From: Prosthecodimorpha staleyi
GTDB lineage: Bacteria; Pseudomonadota; Alphaproteobacteria; Rhizobiales; Ancalomicrobiaceae
Assembly (NCBI RefSeq): GCF_018729455.1
Contig: NZ_JAHHZF010000004.1
Span: 402,781 to 466,780, forward strand
Length of the DNA stretch: 64,000 nt
Reading direction: 5' to 3'
The notes beneath the pieces were generated by a model, which worked only from the letters and a program-made list of their open reading frames with translations, ran no database searches and was not told the DNA's origin. Shown here in pieces: positions 5,372 through 26,856 of this stretch. A program made the position numbers and the translations under genes. Numbering within the stretch: the stretch's first letter is position 1; every line of letters starts with the position of its first letter.

Positions 5372-6318
5372 GGCGAGACCTCCGGCATAAGTCCATGGCG
5401 CGTCGCCGCGGCCTCGATCAGCGCCGCGATGCGGCCGGGCGCCTCCTCATGGGCGAGGTGGCCGAGCCCGGCCAGTTCGACGATCTCGGGCCTGGCCAGG
5501 CGGCGGGCCGTCTCGCCGGCCTGACGCGCCGGCACCATGCCGTCGCAGGCGCCGGCGATCAGCAGCACCGGCACCTTCAGACGGGGCAGGTCGCGCAGCA
5601 GCGGTTCCAGATCCCAGCCGGCCATCATGCCGAAGGCGGCGGCGACCTGGTCCGGATCGGCGGCCAGCCGCCGGTAGAAGGACGCGGCGGCCGGATCAAG
5701 CCGCGAGCCGGTGCGCTCCAGGAGACGATCGACCACGGCAGGATCGCGCGCCCGGCGGGCGAAGAAGCGTGGCAGGAGCGGGTTCAGCGCCAGGAACCGC
5801 GCGACCGGCGACACGGCCCGGGCGAGCGGCCCGCCGAAGCCGGCCAGCGCACCGTTCAGACTGACGACGAGACCCGGATGGATGGCGCCGTCGAGGCAGA
5901 GCCGCAACGCGATCGCCGCCCCGGCCGAATGGCCGACGGCGAGGACCGGATCGACCTCCAGCGCGCGCAGCAGCGCCGCCAAGGTCGCCGCCATGCCGGG
6001 CAGGTTGGTGCGGCCGGGCGGCAACGGCTCGCTGAAGCCGTGGCCGGGGAGATCGCACAGCACGACCGTGAAATGCCGGGCCAGCAGCGGCGCCAGCGCC
6101 GCGTAGGAATGCGTCGAAGCGCCGGTGCCGTGGATCAGCAGGGCCGCCGGTCCGGTTCCCATGACCTGGACATGCCACAGGATGTCGGCACGCACGAAGC
6201 GGCTCGCGGCCCGGTTCGGCCAGTCCTGCCCGTCGCGGTCGAACCGCAGGCGCGCCAGCGTGGCGAGCGAGCGCCGCGCCGACGGTGAGGCTGCCGCCAC
6301 CGAGCCCGAAGGGGTCAT
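5368..6318 (-). CDS. bchO: Alpha/beta hydrolase BchO (magnesium chelatase-associated protein)
   Basis: This 316-residue alpha/beta-fold protein shows [30 protein letters not shown] and the nucleophile elbow VGHSAGAA, with [12 protein letters not shown] near the C-terminus. BchO is found next to magnesium chelatase genes in almost all purple-bacterial clusters; its biochemical role is not settled and it is usually described as a putative chelatase accessory factor. In this cluster it does not follow bchD directly: dxs lies between them. It overlaps dxs by 4 bp at its start and crtI by 4 bp at its end, so it is translated in the dxs-bchO-crtI chain. Assignment to BchO rather than a generic hydrolase relies on context and the N-terminal pattern ([12 protein letters not shown]). 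Confidence 0.87.
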
Positions 6319-8159
6319 GACACGAATCCCGGCATGCCGGCGGCGACCAGAACGGGCCGCGCGGCCATGCGCGGACGGACCTGTTCGAGTGCCGACCGGG
6401 CCGTCTCGGCAATGCCGGCCCCGTCGAGCCCGGCCGCCTGGAGCAGGACACCGGGGCCGTCATGGGGCAGGAACCGGTCCGGCAGGGCGAGGGTGCGCAC
6501 GACCAGCCGACCGACCGGCATGCGGGCTTCGGCGAGCAGCCTCAGGACCGCGGTGCCGAAGCCGCCGGCAGCCTCCTCGACCGTGATCAGGACGCGATGC
6601 CGGCGCGCCAGGGACAGGATCAGCTCCGCATCGAGCGGCTTGACGAAGCGGGCATCCGCCACCGTGGCGAAGATGCCGTCGCGGGCCAGCCGGTCGGCGG
6701 CATCGCTGGCGGCGGCGAGCCGGGTGCCCAGCGACAGGATCGCGACATCCTCGCCCTCCGCATAGATGCGGCCGCGGCCGATCGTGAGCACGCGCGCCGG
6801 CTCGGAAAGATCGGCACCGAAGCCGTCGCCGCGCGGGAAGCGGAAGGCGATCGGACCCTCGTCATAGGCCGCCGCCGTGGCGACCATGTCGCGCAGTTCG
6901 GCCTCGTCGGCCGGCGCCATCACGACCATGCCGGGCAGGCAGGCGAGCATCGCCAGATCGTAGCTGCCGGCGTGGGTCGCCCCGTCGGCCCCGACCAGGC
7001 CGGCCCGATCGATGGCGAAGCGCACCGGAAGATGCTGGATCGCCACGTCATGGACGATCTGGTCGTAGGCCCGCTGCAGGAAGGTCGAGTAGATCGCGCA
7101 GAAGGGCTTCATGCCCTCGCAGGCGAGCCCGGCCGCGAAGGTGACGGCATGCTGCTCGGCGATGCCGGTATCGAAGGCGCGGTCCGGGAAGGCCTTGGCG
7201 AAGCGTTCGATGCCGGTCCCGGAGGCCATCGCGGCCGTGATCCCGACGATGCGGCGGTCGTCGCGCGCCTCCGCGATCAGCGCGTCGGCGAAGACCTGGG
7301 TGAAGCTCGGCGCGATCGCCTTCGGCTTGGCCTGCACGCCGGTGGCCGGATCGAACGCGGTGACGCCGTGCAGCCGGTCGGCCGCCTTTTCGGCCGGGGC
7401 ATAGCCGTGGCCCTTCTCGGTGCGCACATGCAGGACGACCGGCCCGCCGCAATCCCGGACCACCTCGAGCGCCTCGACCAGCGCCGCCATGTCGTGGCCG
7501 TCGACCGGACCGCGATAGGTGAAGCCGAGCGCGGTGAACAGGTTCTCGGGCGCATTGGCGCCACCGGCCAGAGCGTCGAGATGGCCCGACAGGGCGCCGA
7601 CCGGCGGCGAGATCGACATGGCATTGTCGTTGATGATGACCGTGACCGGCAGCCCGGAGGCGCCGGCATTGTTCAGGCCCTCATAGGCGAGACCCGCCGA
7701 CAGCGCGCCGTCGCCGATCACGCAGACTACCCGCCCGGGCCGGCCGAGCAGGCGGCGGGCGGCCGCGAAGCCGAGTGCTGCGGAGATGGAGGTGGAGGAA
7801 TGGCCGGCGCCGAACGGGTCGTAGGCGCTCTCGTCCCGCTTGGTGAAGCCGGACAGGCCGCCGCCCTGGCGGATGGTCTCCAGCCGGCCGAGCCGGCCGG
7901 TCAGCATCTTGTGCGGATAGGCTTGGTGGCCGACATCCCAGATCAGGATGTCCTCGGGCGTATCGAACACCCGGTGCAGCGCGATGGTCAGCTCGACCAC
8001 GCCGAGGCTGGCGCCGAGATGGCCGCCGGTTCGCGACACCGAGCGGACCAGCGTGCCCCGCAACTCGTCGGCGAGCCGCGGCAGCAGCGCGGGGTCGAGC
8101 GCCCGGATGTCGGCCGGCACGGCAATGTGGGACAGGAGAGCGTTTCCTTCCGGGGCCAT
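6315..8159 (-). CDS. dxs: 1-deoxy-D-xylulose-5-phosphate synthase
   Basis: DXS makes 1-deoxyxylulose 5-phosphate from pyruvate and glyceraldehyde 3-phosphate, the entry reaction of the MEP isoprenoid pathway. At 614 residues it is near full length. The thiamine diphosphate motif GDGALSAG followed by [13 protein letters not shown] is present, along with [21 protein letters not shown] at the start and the catalytic region [21 protein letters not shown]. The ATG at 8159 follows GAGGTG. A dxs copy inside a photosynthesis cluster would raise precursor supply for carotenoids and the bacteriochlorophyll tail together with pigment synthesis. Its leader, between the bchD stop and dxs, holds the tandem hairpin array at 8172-8294. 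A housekeeping dxs may exist elsewhere in the genome. Confidence 0.95.
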
Positions 8160-8171
8160 GTCAGCACCTCA

Positions 8172-8294
8172 TTGGCGGGGCGAGCCCGCGTGTTGGCGGG
8201 ACGACCCCGCGTTCTGGCGGGACCAGCCCGCGATCTGGCGGGACGAACCCGCATGTCGGCGGGACGGACCCGCAATTCGGCGGGGAAGCCCGCC
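8172..8294. repeat. Tandem array of six 21-bp units, each a GCGGG-N4/5-CCCGC hairpin
   Basis: Units start at 8172, 8193, 8214, 8235, 8256 and 8277; the last is 20 bp. Each contains GCGGG, four or five variable bases, then CCCGC, so each can fold as a small GC stem. The stem bases stay fixed while the loop and the 5-6 bases between units vary. The array fills the 137-bp gap between the bchD stop (8297) and the dxs start (8159), where most joints of this operon overlap or nearly touch. It may slow ribosomes or RNases, end part of the transcripts, or bind a protein. It is not a CRISPR array: units are too short and there are no spacers. Confidence 0.9.
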
Positions 8295-8296
8295 TG

Positions 8297-10051
8297 TCAG
8301 CCGGCGCGACGGGCCGGCACCCTGGAGCGAACCGCCGCGGCGACGACACCGGCATCGGCGCGCGGCAGCGGCAGGTAGGTGGCACCCATCGCCTCGGCGA
8401 GACGACCGGCGCGTGGATTGGGGCGATCGGAAATGTCCAGCATCAGCGTCGGAACGGCGTGGACGCGCAGCCTTGCCGCCGCGGCGAGCGCATCGGCCTC
8501 CGCCCGGGCCCGCCCGCCGGCGCCGTCAAGGGCGACGTTGCCCTGCCCGTCGGTCAGGAAGACGAGGTTCGGCGCCTCGTCGGCCCGTCCCAGACGCAGC
8601 GCCAGCGCGAGCCCAGCCTCGATCGCGGTTGCGAGCGGCGTACCGCCGCCGGCGGCCATGTCGGCAAGGCGGCGCCGGGCCTGGGTGAGCGAACCGGTCG
8701 GCGGCAGCACGGTCTCGCAGGAGCGGCCGCGGAAGATGAGCAGGGCGACGCGATCGCGCCGGACATAGCAATCCGACAGGATGATCTCGACCGCCCCCTT
8801 GGCCTCGGCGAGCCGGTGCAGGGCGGACGACCCGGAGGCGTCGACCAGGAAGACGGTGGTCGAGCGGGCATGTCGGCGATGCCGGCGGATCGCCATGTCG
8901 GCCGGTCGCACCGCGACGATCATGCCGGGCGGCGGCGCGGCACGCAGGCGCTTCATGGGCGCGGCGCGGCGTAGGGTTTCGAGGAGATCGAGCCGTGCGC
9001 CGCCGGTCGGACGGCCGGACCGGCTCGGCAGGGGGCGGCCGCCGGCACCGCGCAGCGTCTTGCGGTCGGGACCGGACCGGCCGTCCGCGCCGGAGCGGGG
9101 GGCCGAGCGGGCCGTGGCGAGACGGGCGAGCAGGTCGGGCGGCAACAGGGCGGCCGTCGCCTCGATCACGCGGTCGGCGAGCGGGCGATCCGACGGATCG
9201 GTGCCCGTCTCGGCGGCGTCGTCCGGGGCATTCGCCGGCGGGGGCGGCGGTTCGGCGGCCTCCGGCTCGCGCGTCGGCCACCGGGTGGCGCGCGGCGCCA
9301 GGACCAGATGGGCGGCAACCACGACATCCTCGTCGGCCGGCACCGGCCGGCCCGCCAGGGCGGCGGAGGCCCGCATGGCGCGCACGGCCAGAATGAGAGC
9401 CCGCGGCGAGGCGACCCCGAGCGCGATGGCGGCTTCGGCAAGCGCGTGAAGAAGCGGATCCGGCAGGTCGACGGCACCGAGCCGCGCCCGCGCCTCCTCG
9501 ATGTCCGGCTCGTCCTCGGGCACCAGATCGGCCAGCCGCACCGCGGACAGATCGACCCGGAAGGCGAGCCGGTCGGTGAGCGCGCCGGGCAGCGGCGGAT
9601 CGTCCGGGCCGCCTTCATCGAGCGCGATGACGATCGGGGGCAGCGTTTGGGCCGAGCGCCGGGCGGTGGCCGGCGGGGCGGTGTCGGACCGGTCGAGCGC
9701 GGCGGCCAGCCGGCCGGCCGTGGCCGTGCCGAGCCGTTCGGCCGACGGCACCACCAGGAGGCCCCCGGCCGCCTCGGCGAGAAGACCGGGCCTGTCGACC
9801 GGACGGCCGGCGGCCAGCGTCGCGGCGACATCGAGCCCGCCGTCGAGGCGGCCCGGATCGATCGAGGCCGGCAGGCGCCGCACAGCAACGTCCGGCCCAA
9901 GCTGCGCGACCAGGCGCTCGACGATCGGGTCGGTCGCGCCGCGCCCGCCGCCGAGAATGAGACCGCCCAGCCCGACCGGATCGACCGCGATCAGATCGGC
10001 GGCCAGAGAGGCATCCGCGAAGGCATGCTGGGACCGGTCGGGGGCGGTCAT
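8297..10051 (-). CDS. bchD: Magnesium chelatase subunit D, BchD
   Basis: BchD is the regulatory AAA+/von Willebrand subunit that works with BchI to drive magnesium insertion by BchH. The 584-residue frame starts at ATG 10051, overlapping the bchI stop by 4 bp. It has an N-terminal degenerate AAA region, a middle proline- and acid-rich linker (EPPPPPANAPDD), and a C-terminal integrin-I domain with the metal-site motif DASGSS in STTVFLVDASGSSALHRLAEAKG and FLTDGQGN. This layout is standard for BchD. The stop at 8297 touches the end of the hairpin array that leads into dxs. Confidence 0.95.
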   Translation of the reverse strand: MTAPDRSQHAFADASLAADLIAVDPVGLGGLILGGGRGATDPIVERLVAQLGPDVAVRRLPASIDPGRLDGGLDVAATLAAGRPVDRPGLLAEAAGGLLVVPSAERLGTATAGRLAAALDRSDTAPPATARRSAQTLPPIVIALDEGGPDDPPLPGALTDRLAFRVDLSAVRLADLVPEDEPDIEEARARLGAVDLPDPLLHALAEAAIALGVASPRALILAVRAMRASAALAGRPVPADEDVVVAAHLVLAPRATRWPTREPEAAEPPPPPANAPDDAAETGTDPSDRPLADRVIEATAALLPPDLLARLATARSAPRSGADGRSGPDRKTLRGAGGRPLPSRSGRPTGGARLDLLETLRRAAPMKRLRAAPPPGMIVAVRPADMAIRRHRRHARSTTVFLVDASGSSALHRLAEAKGAVEIILSDCYVRRDRVALLIFRGRSCETVLPPTGSLTQARRRLADMAAGGGTPLATAIEAGLALALRLGRADEAPNLVFLTDGQGNVALDGAGGRARAEADALAAAARLRVHAVPTLMLDISDRPNPRAGRLAEAMGATYLPLPRADAGVVAAAVRSRVPARRAG

Positions 10052-25060: not shown

Positions 25061-26856
<1,796 letters not shown>

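Follow-up and report, generated by a model that had tools for sequence, protein, structure and literature searches.

In the puf operon of Rhodobacter, pufBA RNA is stabilised at its 3' end by a hairpin, and deleting this hairpin alters the ratios of the products (PMC10253847); multiple hairpins of this operon are said, in a passage of PMC7509114, to hinder endonuclease cleavage. REP sequences and BIMEs are short extragenic palindromes, sometimes clustered or in tandem, for which roles in mRNA stabilisation and termination have been proposed (passage of PMC3733652). The junction between bchD and dxs in the DNA analysed here, a stretch of 64,000 nucleotides from Prosthecodimorpha staleyi (the window), recalls both: as in puf, stem-loops separate neighbouring co-directional genes of a photosynthesis cluster, and as in REP/BIME elements, short extragenic palindromes are reiterated in tandem. 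Locus-specific tandem hairpin arrays in bacteria were not described among the top matches listed by a literature search that covered few of the subscription journals.

A tandem hairpin array between bchD and dxs

On the minus strand of the window the genes acsF-puhE-hemA-bchI-bchD-dxs-bchO-crtI-crtB form a run, in which crtB scores under the curated cut-offs of its families. bchD and dxs are separated by a gap of exactly 137 bp (8160-8296), nearly all of which is taken up by six units of the form GCGGG-N4/5-CCCGC. The original prediction had presented this as the only gap in a tightly joined run; its size is exact and it is the largest of the run, but there are others (94 bp in crtI/crtB, 52 bp in acsF/puhE and 32 bp in hemA/bchI). 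The genome has a second dxs gene at G000:C2:28182-30050, which is 63% identical to that of the photosynthesis cluster. The features of the junction are as follows.

8297..10051, minus strand: bchD, magnesium chelatase subunit D, upstream of the array (NF009943.0, 572.3 bits against a cut-off of 571)
8297..8299, minus strand: bchD stop codon TGA, 3 nt before unit 1
8175..8293, minus strand (the sense strand): tandem hairpin array, six units GCGGG-N4/5-CCCGC
8280..8293, minus strand: unit 1, first after the bchD stop, loop CUUC, stem of 6 bp counting the neighbouring bases
8259..8273, minus strand: unit 2, loop UCCGU
8238..8252, minus strand: unit 3, loop UUCGU
8217..8231, minus strand: unit 4, loop CUGGU
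8196..8210, minus strand: unit 5, loop GUCGU
8175..8189, minus strand: unit 6, loop CUCGC
8167..8170, minus strand: GAGG, probable ribosome-binding site of dxs as read from the sequence, 4 nt past the last unit
6315..8159, minus strand: dxs, 1-deoxy-D-xylulose-5-phosphate synthase, downstream of the array (TIGR00204.1, 733.9 bits against a cut-off of 465.95)

The GCGGG/CCCGC stem is present in 6/6 units, which confirms the six tandem units with invariant stems that had been predicted. The 21-bp period given with them holds for the unit starts on the plus strand; in the sense direction the first step is 20 bp, since the unit nearest to bchD has a 4-nt loop. Five pairs of neighbouring units with at most 3 mismatches were found against 0.37 expected, a number reached in 0 of 100 shuffles, and the array is beyond chance. 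The RNA of 8157-8310 folded better than its dinucleotide shuffles (z -3.09, with 0 of 200 as good), and Rfam models run against 7000-9500 gave no match up to E = 1.

The junction in related genomes

The array was compared with the same junction in Prosthecomicrobium hirschii strain 16, now Prosthecodimorpha hirschii (family Ancalomicrobiaceae), which belongs to the genus of the window's genome and is 93.5% identical to it across 20 kb around the locus. The announcement of the P. hirschii genome (PMC4653794) leaves photosynthesis genes unmentioned, though the genome carries the bchD and dxs of the cluster. Its gap extends for 221 bases after the bchD stop codon and holds ten units, so that the comparison of unit number in relatives which had been proposed with the prediction yields 10 against 6; both genomes are drafts and assembly could have affected these numbers, though the arrays are short and their units unlike one another in sequence. 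Unit 1 is common to both species, lying 3 bases past the stop codon on the same stem, with the loop CUUC in the window's species and CUUU in P. hirschii. The two species agree in all of the final 14 bases leading up to the dxs start, and the middle of the array is not alignable one to one.

Among the 16 units of the two species, stems deviated in 0 of 160 cells, compared to 13/60 in loops and 27/72 in spacers (jointly 40/132), where the loop and spacer counts come from columns of 12 units each, with 5-nt loops or 6-nt spacers, and a deviation is any departure from the commonest letter. The difference gives a Fisher p of 4e-16, a value not to be taken literally as the units are related. The earlier observation that stems are kept while loops change thus holds in two species, and it holds as well across the class of arrays described below. 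At fourfold-degenerate (silent) sites the two species differ in 66 of 399 positions of dxs and 86 of 431 of bchD (17-20%); that the stems are fixed despite this divergence indicates that something holds them fixed. Because they never vary, the bchD-dxs array alone cannot separate pairing from letters.

The chief rival to a functional reading, possible if somewhat unlikely in our judgement, is a minisatellite driven by slippage and devoid of function. Replication would stall or slip out of register on short GC-rich palindromes, which would thereby be duplicated; loops and spacers would drift, and the stems would look fixed either because only units with intact stems are duplicated or because one arm corrects the other in hairpin-templated repair. 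Such homogenisation should level loops and spacers too, yet no two of the 16 units have both loop and spacer in common while all 160 stem cells are invariant.

A coding repeat was also considered and rejected. The original prediction had pointed out that the period keeps the frames open on both strands, which is true of the window; in P. hirschii, however, full units of 20, 21 and 22 bp shift the frame, there is one antisense stop, and no common peptide results.

In a wider search of 397 genomes from the order, only two, both Prosthecodimorpha, had the exact two-unit pattern. A bchD match was present in 74 of these 397 genomes, and among the best 30 loci dxs adjoins bchD in five, namely in three Prosthecodimorpha genomes and in two genomes of one other family. 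The bchD-dxs gaps of the latter two (100 and 116 bases) contain no array. In the third Prosthecodimorpha genome, a more distant congener (G013), the gap is of 44 bases and holds one 6-bp hairpin with other letters (z -2.0, with 9 of 200 shuffles as good).

Hairpin arrays elsewhere in the genus

P. hirschii was sampled in 100 stretches of 20 kb (2 Mb, about a third of the genome), 98 of them evenly spaced and two (L165 and L166) picked because they contain the photosynthesis cluster; from the window's genome 0.46 Mb was read. In the P. hirschii sample, 31 arrays were made up of three or more perfect hairpins sharing a 5-bp stem, whether coding or not and counting the dxs array, compared to 3 in one shuffle; arrays of at least four units numbered 6, compared to 0 in one shuffle. 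Two such arrays were found in 400 kb of the window's species (0 in three shuffles) and two in the window itself. GC-matched control DNA (300 kb) gave 0, about 4.7 being expected at the P. hirschii rate, and loci of other genera (175 kb) gave 1, compared to 3 in three shuffles. The bchD-dxs array seems to be a member of a wider class of arrays in the genus whose letters are specific to each locus. Three consecutive hairpins with the stem CGCCG were seen at 25582-25694 of the window, and may be coding.

Among the repeats that Tandem Repeats Finder called in P. hirschii, a hairpin consensus was seen for 27 of 94 intergenic ones (12.8 expected), the sequence varying between arrays, and for 18 of 66 coding ones (14.1 expected); in the window's species the corresponding numbers were 3 of 7 (0.7 expected) and 1 of 7 (1.7 expected). 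In the control DNA, with genes not separated, 3 of 16 repeats had a stem of at least 5 bp. The intergenic excess thus amounts to a factor of about two, and individual arrays of the class may have arisen by chance. The 27 include the dxs array and also L167:11355, which is probably coding and was excluded from the tests of covariation, gene position and stem variation. Genes were called by a crude finder seeded with known genes, which assigned 79% of the sample to coding sequence against a published 87.8% (PMC4653794), so that some "intergenic" arrays may lie in genes.

Stem variation was examined in 27 intergenic hairpin arrays, all those admitted by the rule (25 of P. hirschii and 2 of the window's species), with the dxs array left out. 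Stems deviated in 64 of 1295 cells (4.9%) as against 180 of 1504 (12.0%) elsewhere in the units, and 0 of 2000 rotated masks were as low. For 19 arrays called coding the values were 64/665 and 90/745, and 302 of 2000 rotated masks were as low. Hairpin-consensus repeats called inside genes thus show no clear stem excess, which speaks against a minisatellite as the source of the pattern.

Changes within the stems give a thinner signal. In 24 hand-picked arrays 53 pairs were changed; in two of them both bases had changed with Watson-Crick pairing retained, 14 had become G-T and 29 were broken. At L136:14708-14939 of P. hirschii, 11 units carry GGTCGG/CCGACC and a twelfth GGTCGG/CCGGCC with a G-T pair, whereas the orthologue in the window's species (L231) has GGCCGG/CCGGCC in 3/3 units; a T-A and a C-G pair have therefore replaced each other nearly throughout, with pairing kept. 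The window's species also has, in a single unit at L172, CGGCG/CGCCG in place of CAGCG/CGCTG, a change from A-T to G-C.

P. hirschii and the window's species have 12 and 3 units at L136, 5 and 3 at L172, and 6 and 6 at L197, and hairpins behind stop codons have been multiplied in P. hirschii at L195 (5 against 1 in the sister species) and L170 (3 against 1); a seventh locus, L171, gave no clear count and was left out. With bchD-dxs included, the number differs at five of the six loci compared, as a slippage-driven minisatellite would have it. The locus-specific letters fit that reading as well, as do the replacement of one stem pair right across the L136 array, which resembles concerted evolution, and the occurrence of the class twice between divergent genes.

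Relative to the flanking genes, and counting the dxs array, 15 hairpin arrays were co-directional, 8 convergent and 2 divergent. Tandem repeats without hairpins lean the same way (36, 18 and 12, respectively), and since this lean towards the 3' side is common to them, position is weak support for a role in RNA.

Folding and transcription signals at the junction

In the equilibrium fold, the mean probability of the local stem was below 0.02 in 4 of 6 window units and below 0.15 in 9 of 10 P. hirschii units. The first hairpin reached 0.52 and 0.57 in the two species and one further window unit 0.93, the others being taken up in larger rods. As rods of paired units are favoured, the hairpins could exist separately only as kinetic products; otherwise it is the rods that matter. 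The predictions did not support a role of the array in insulating the ribosome-binding site of dxs, whose openness is put at 0.29 in both species when the array is present, at 0.39 and 0.48 when it is removed, and at 0.34 when the array is shuffled.

A scan of 7600-8900 found no terminator-like site, and no unit of the array is followed by a T-run, findings that leave the earlier proposal of a ratio between gene products set by termination unsupported as far as intrinsic terminators go. They also count against a transcription attenuator, in which the row of hairpins would pause RNA polymerase and part of the transcripts would end, with Rho or without it, lowering dxs-bchO-crtIB relative to bchD. 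Rho requires an unstructured C-rich stretch, which such dense structure would hide. Tandem terminator-like rows behind genes do exist in the genus, with 3-6 hairpins each at L115:9988-10102, L197:3814-4010, L170:306-408 and L195:1766-1889 and with T-rich tails at L115 and L197; all in all we consider an attenuator at bchD-dxs improbable.

A palindromic repeat with a nested hairpin, about 50-68 bp long, occurs in dispersed copies that are 76-86% alike. One stands at L197:4256-4335 of P. hirschii; the 2.46 Mb read from both species gave 11 matches, that one included, of which 10 lie between called genes, and the repeat was seen at nine sites elsewhere in the genome of the window. It is possibly a REP- or MITE-like element.

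The same letters elsewhere

The genome search for further copies that had been suggested with the prediction was carried out, and the two-unit pattern with 0-2 mismatches proved to be confined to the bchD-dxs locus; with up to 3 mismatches there were 15 matches, compared to 31 for the reversed pattern. In 2.4 Mb of both genomes (L109-L228), hairpins of the form GCGGG-N4/5-CCCGC numbered 30 against 109 in one shuffle, about a quarter. All-GC hairpins overall are slightly in excess in the same 2.4 Mb. Within the window, unit matches with at most 1 mismatch, array included, numbered 18 where 30 were expected.

These counts concern the possibility, to us a remote one, that the array is a row of DNA sites in which GCGGG and CCCGC half-sites follow every 10-11 bp on one face of the helix and are bound by a regulator or a chromosome protein. 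The half-site spacing follows from the sequence, and steps of 20-22 bp with fixed letters in both species would suit it. The same hairpin is nevertheless avoided elsewhere, with no sign of a regulon; P. hirschii units drift up to 3 bp off the 21-bp grid, the periods of the other Prosthecodimorpha arrays range from 15 to 40 bp, and no sigma-70-like promoter was found in 7600-8900 by a scan that covers the sigma-70 type only. The protein-bound array proposed earlier loses ground, given the rarity of the 5-bp hairpin elsewhere and the range of periods.

The same letters in other bacteria were rejected as relatives of the array: of 30 stretches in a scan of genome contigs P. hirschii was the sole alphaproteobacterium, and the other 29 (from Streptomyces, Chloroflexota, Gallionellales and others) appeared by eye to be short GC-rich repeats, often with identical loops. 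In a Gallionellales MAG (L048, L057, L065), rows of GCGGGTCACACCCGCC stand behind GTAGG at four places and resemble clustered GTAG-type REPs.

A possible role in the RNA

The explanation we favour, to which we give about an even chance, is that the array arose by tandem multiplication of an intercistronic hairpin behind a stop codon and acts on the RNA in the manner of the puf hairpins. Among termination, RNase protection and protein binding, the three modes of action named in the original prediction, RNase protection appears the most plausible. The hairpin just behind the bchD stop occurs in both species that have the array, and units of the same stem and different loops follow it up to the dxs ribosome-binding site. 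In a shared transcript, the array would close off the hemA-bchI-bchD segment at its 3' end with a structured barrier. Such a barrier could slow 3'-to-5' decay and keep endonuclease off the junction, giving different lifetimes to the bchD side and the dxs-bchO-crtI-crtB side. More units would make it stronger or more robust, and slippage would let their number change quickly.

This role in RNA is favoured by the site directly behind a stop codon, by the lack of a sigma-70-like promoter or a terminator in the scanned region, and by the sense-strand tetraloops of the GNRA or UUCG kind at L115, L197, L170 and L195. GNRA and UUCG tetraloops are stable. The role in RNA is weakened by the rods at equilibrium, by a ribosome-binding site whose openness is not raised and by the 3' lean common to other repeats; further counterpoints are that the array occurs in two sister species only and that covariation in the class is thin (2/53).

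A broader proposal, which we put forward tentatively and think rather unlikely, is that Prosthecodimorpha generally multiplies hairpins behind stop codons into arrays with locus-specific stems that can be exchanged in concert. Unit number would then be a fast-evolving dial for the lifetime or the read-through of a single operon segment, with bchD-dxs as the example from the photosynthesis cluster. If the arrays do act on RNA, orthologous junctions would offer a natural series of hairpin numbers (1/3, 1/5, 3/5, 6/10 and 3/12), and how many hairpins are needed to protect or end a message would become directly testable.

Comparison with known systems

REP sequences differ from the bchD-dxs array in forming one family with many genomic copies, an unpaired GTAG/CGTC tag at one end and often a tie to a RAYT transposase, whereas the bchD-dxs letters stand at one locus. 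The end tag is absent from the bchD-dxs units, the spacers of which begin with C and end variably, CGTC occurring only across loop and stem. A PF01797 search for the RAYT (Y1) transposase gave 0 matches in the window's genome, and in the control it was positive in 5 of 14 genomes. With the two-unit pattern at one locus, no end tag and no Y1 transposase (a usual and not a strict criterion), membership in the REP/BIME family was rejected. ANTAR two-hairpin sites need six-base loops, and on this requirement they were rejected too.

Several arrays of the genus (L115, L197, L170, L195) are like tandem intrinsic terminators in being rows of terminator-like hairpins; the bchD-dxs units differ from these in having no T-runs and in lying between closely spaced co-directional genes. 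Bacterial minisatellites (VNTRs) share with the array its tandem units and a number that differs between sister species (6 and 10), but its stems, like those of the class, vary far less than the rest of the unit. Compared with puf, the bchD-dxs junction is another one and bears 6 or 10 small tandem hairpins with the same stem. If the favoured reading is right, a puf-like hairpin control of photosynthesis messages would have been built independently at a junction of bacteriochlorophyll and isoprenoid-carotenoid genes.
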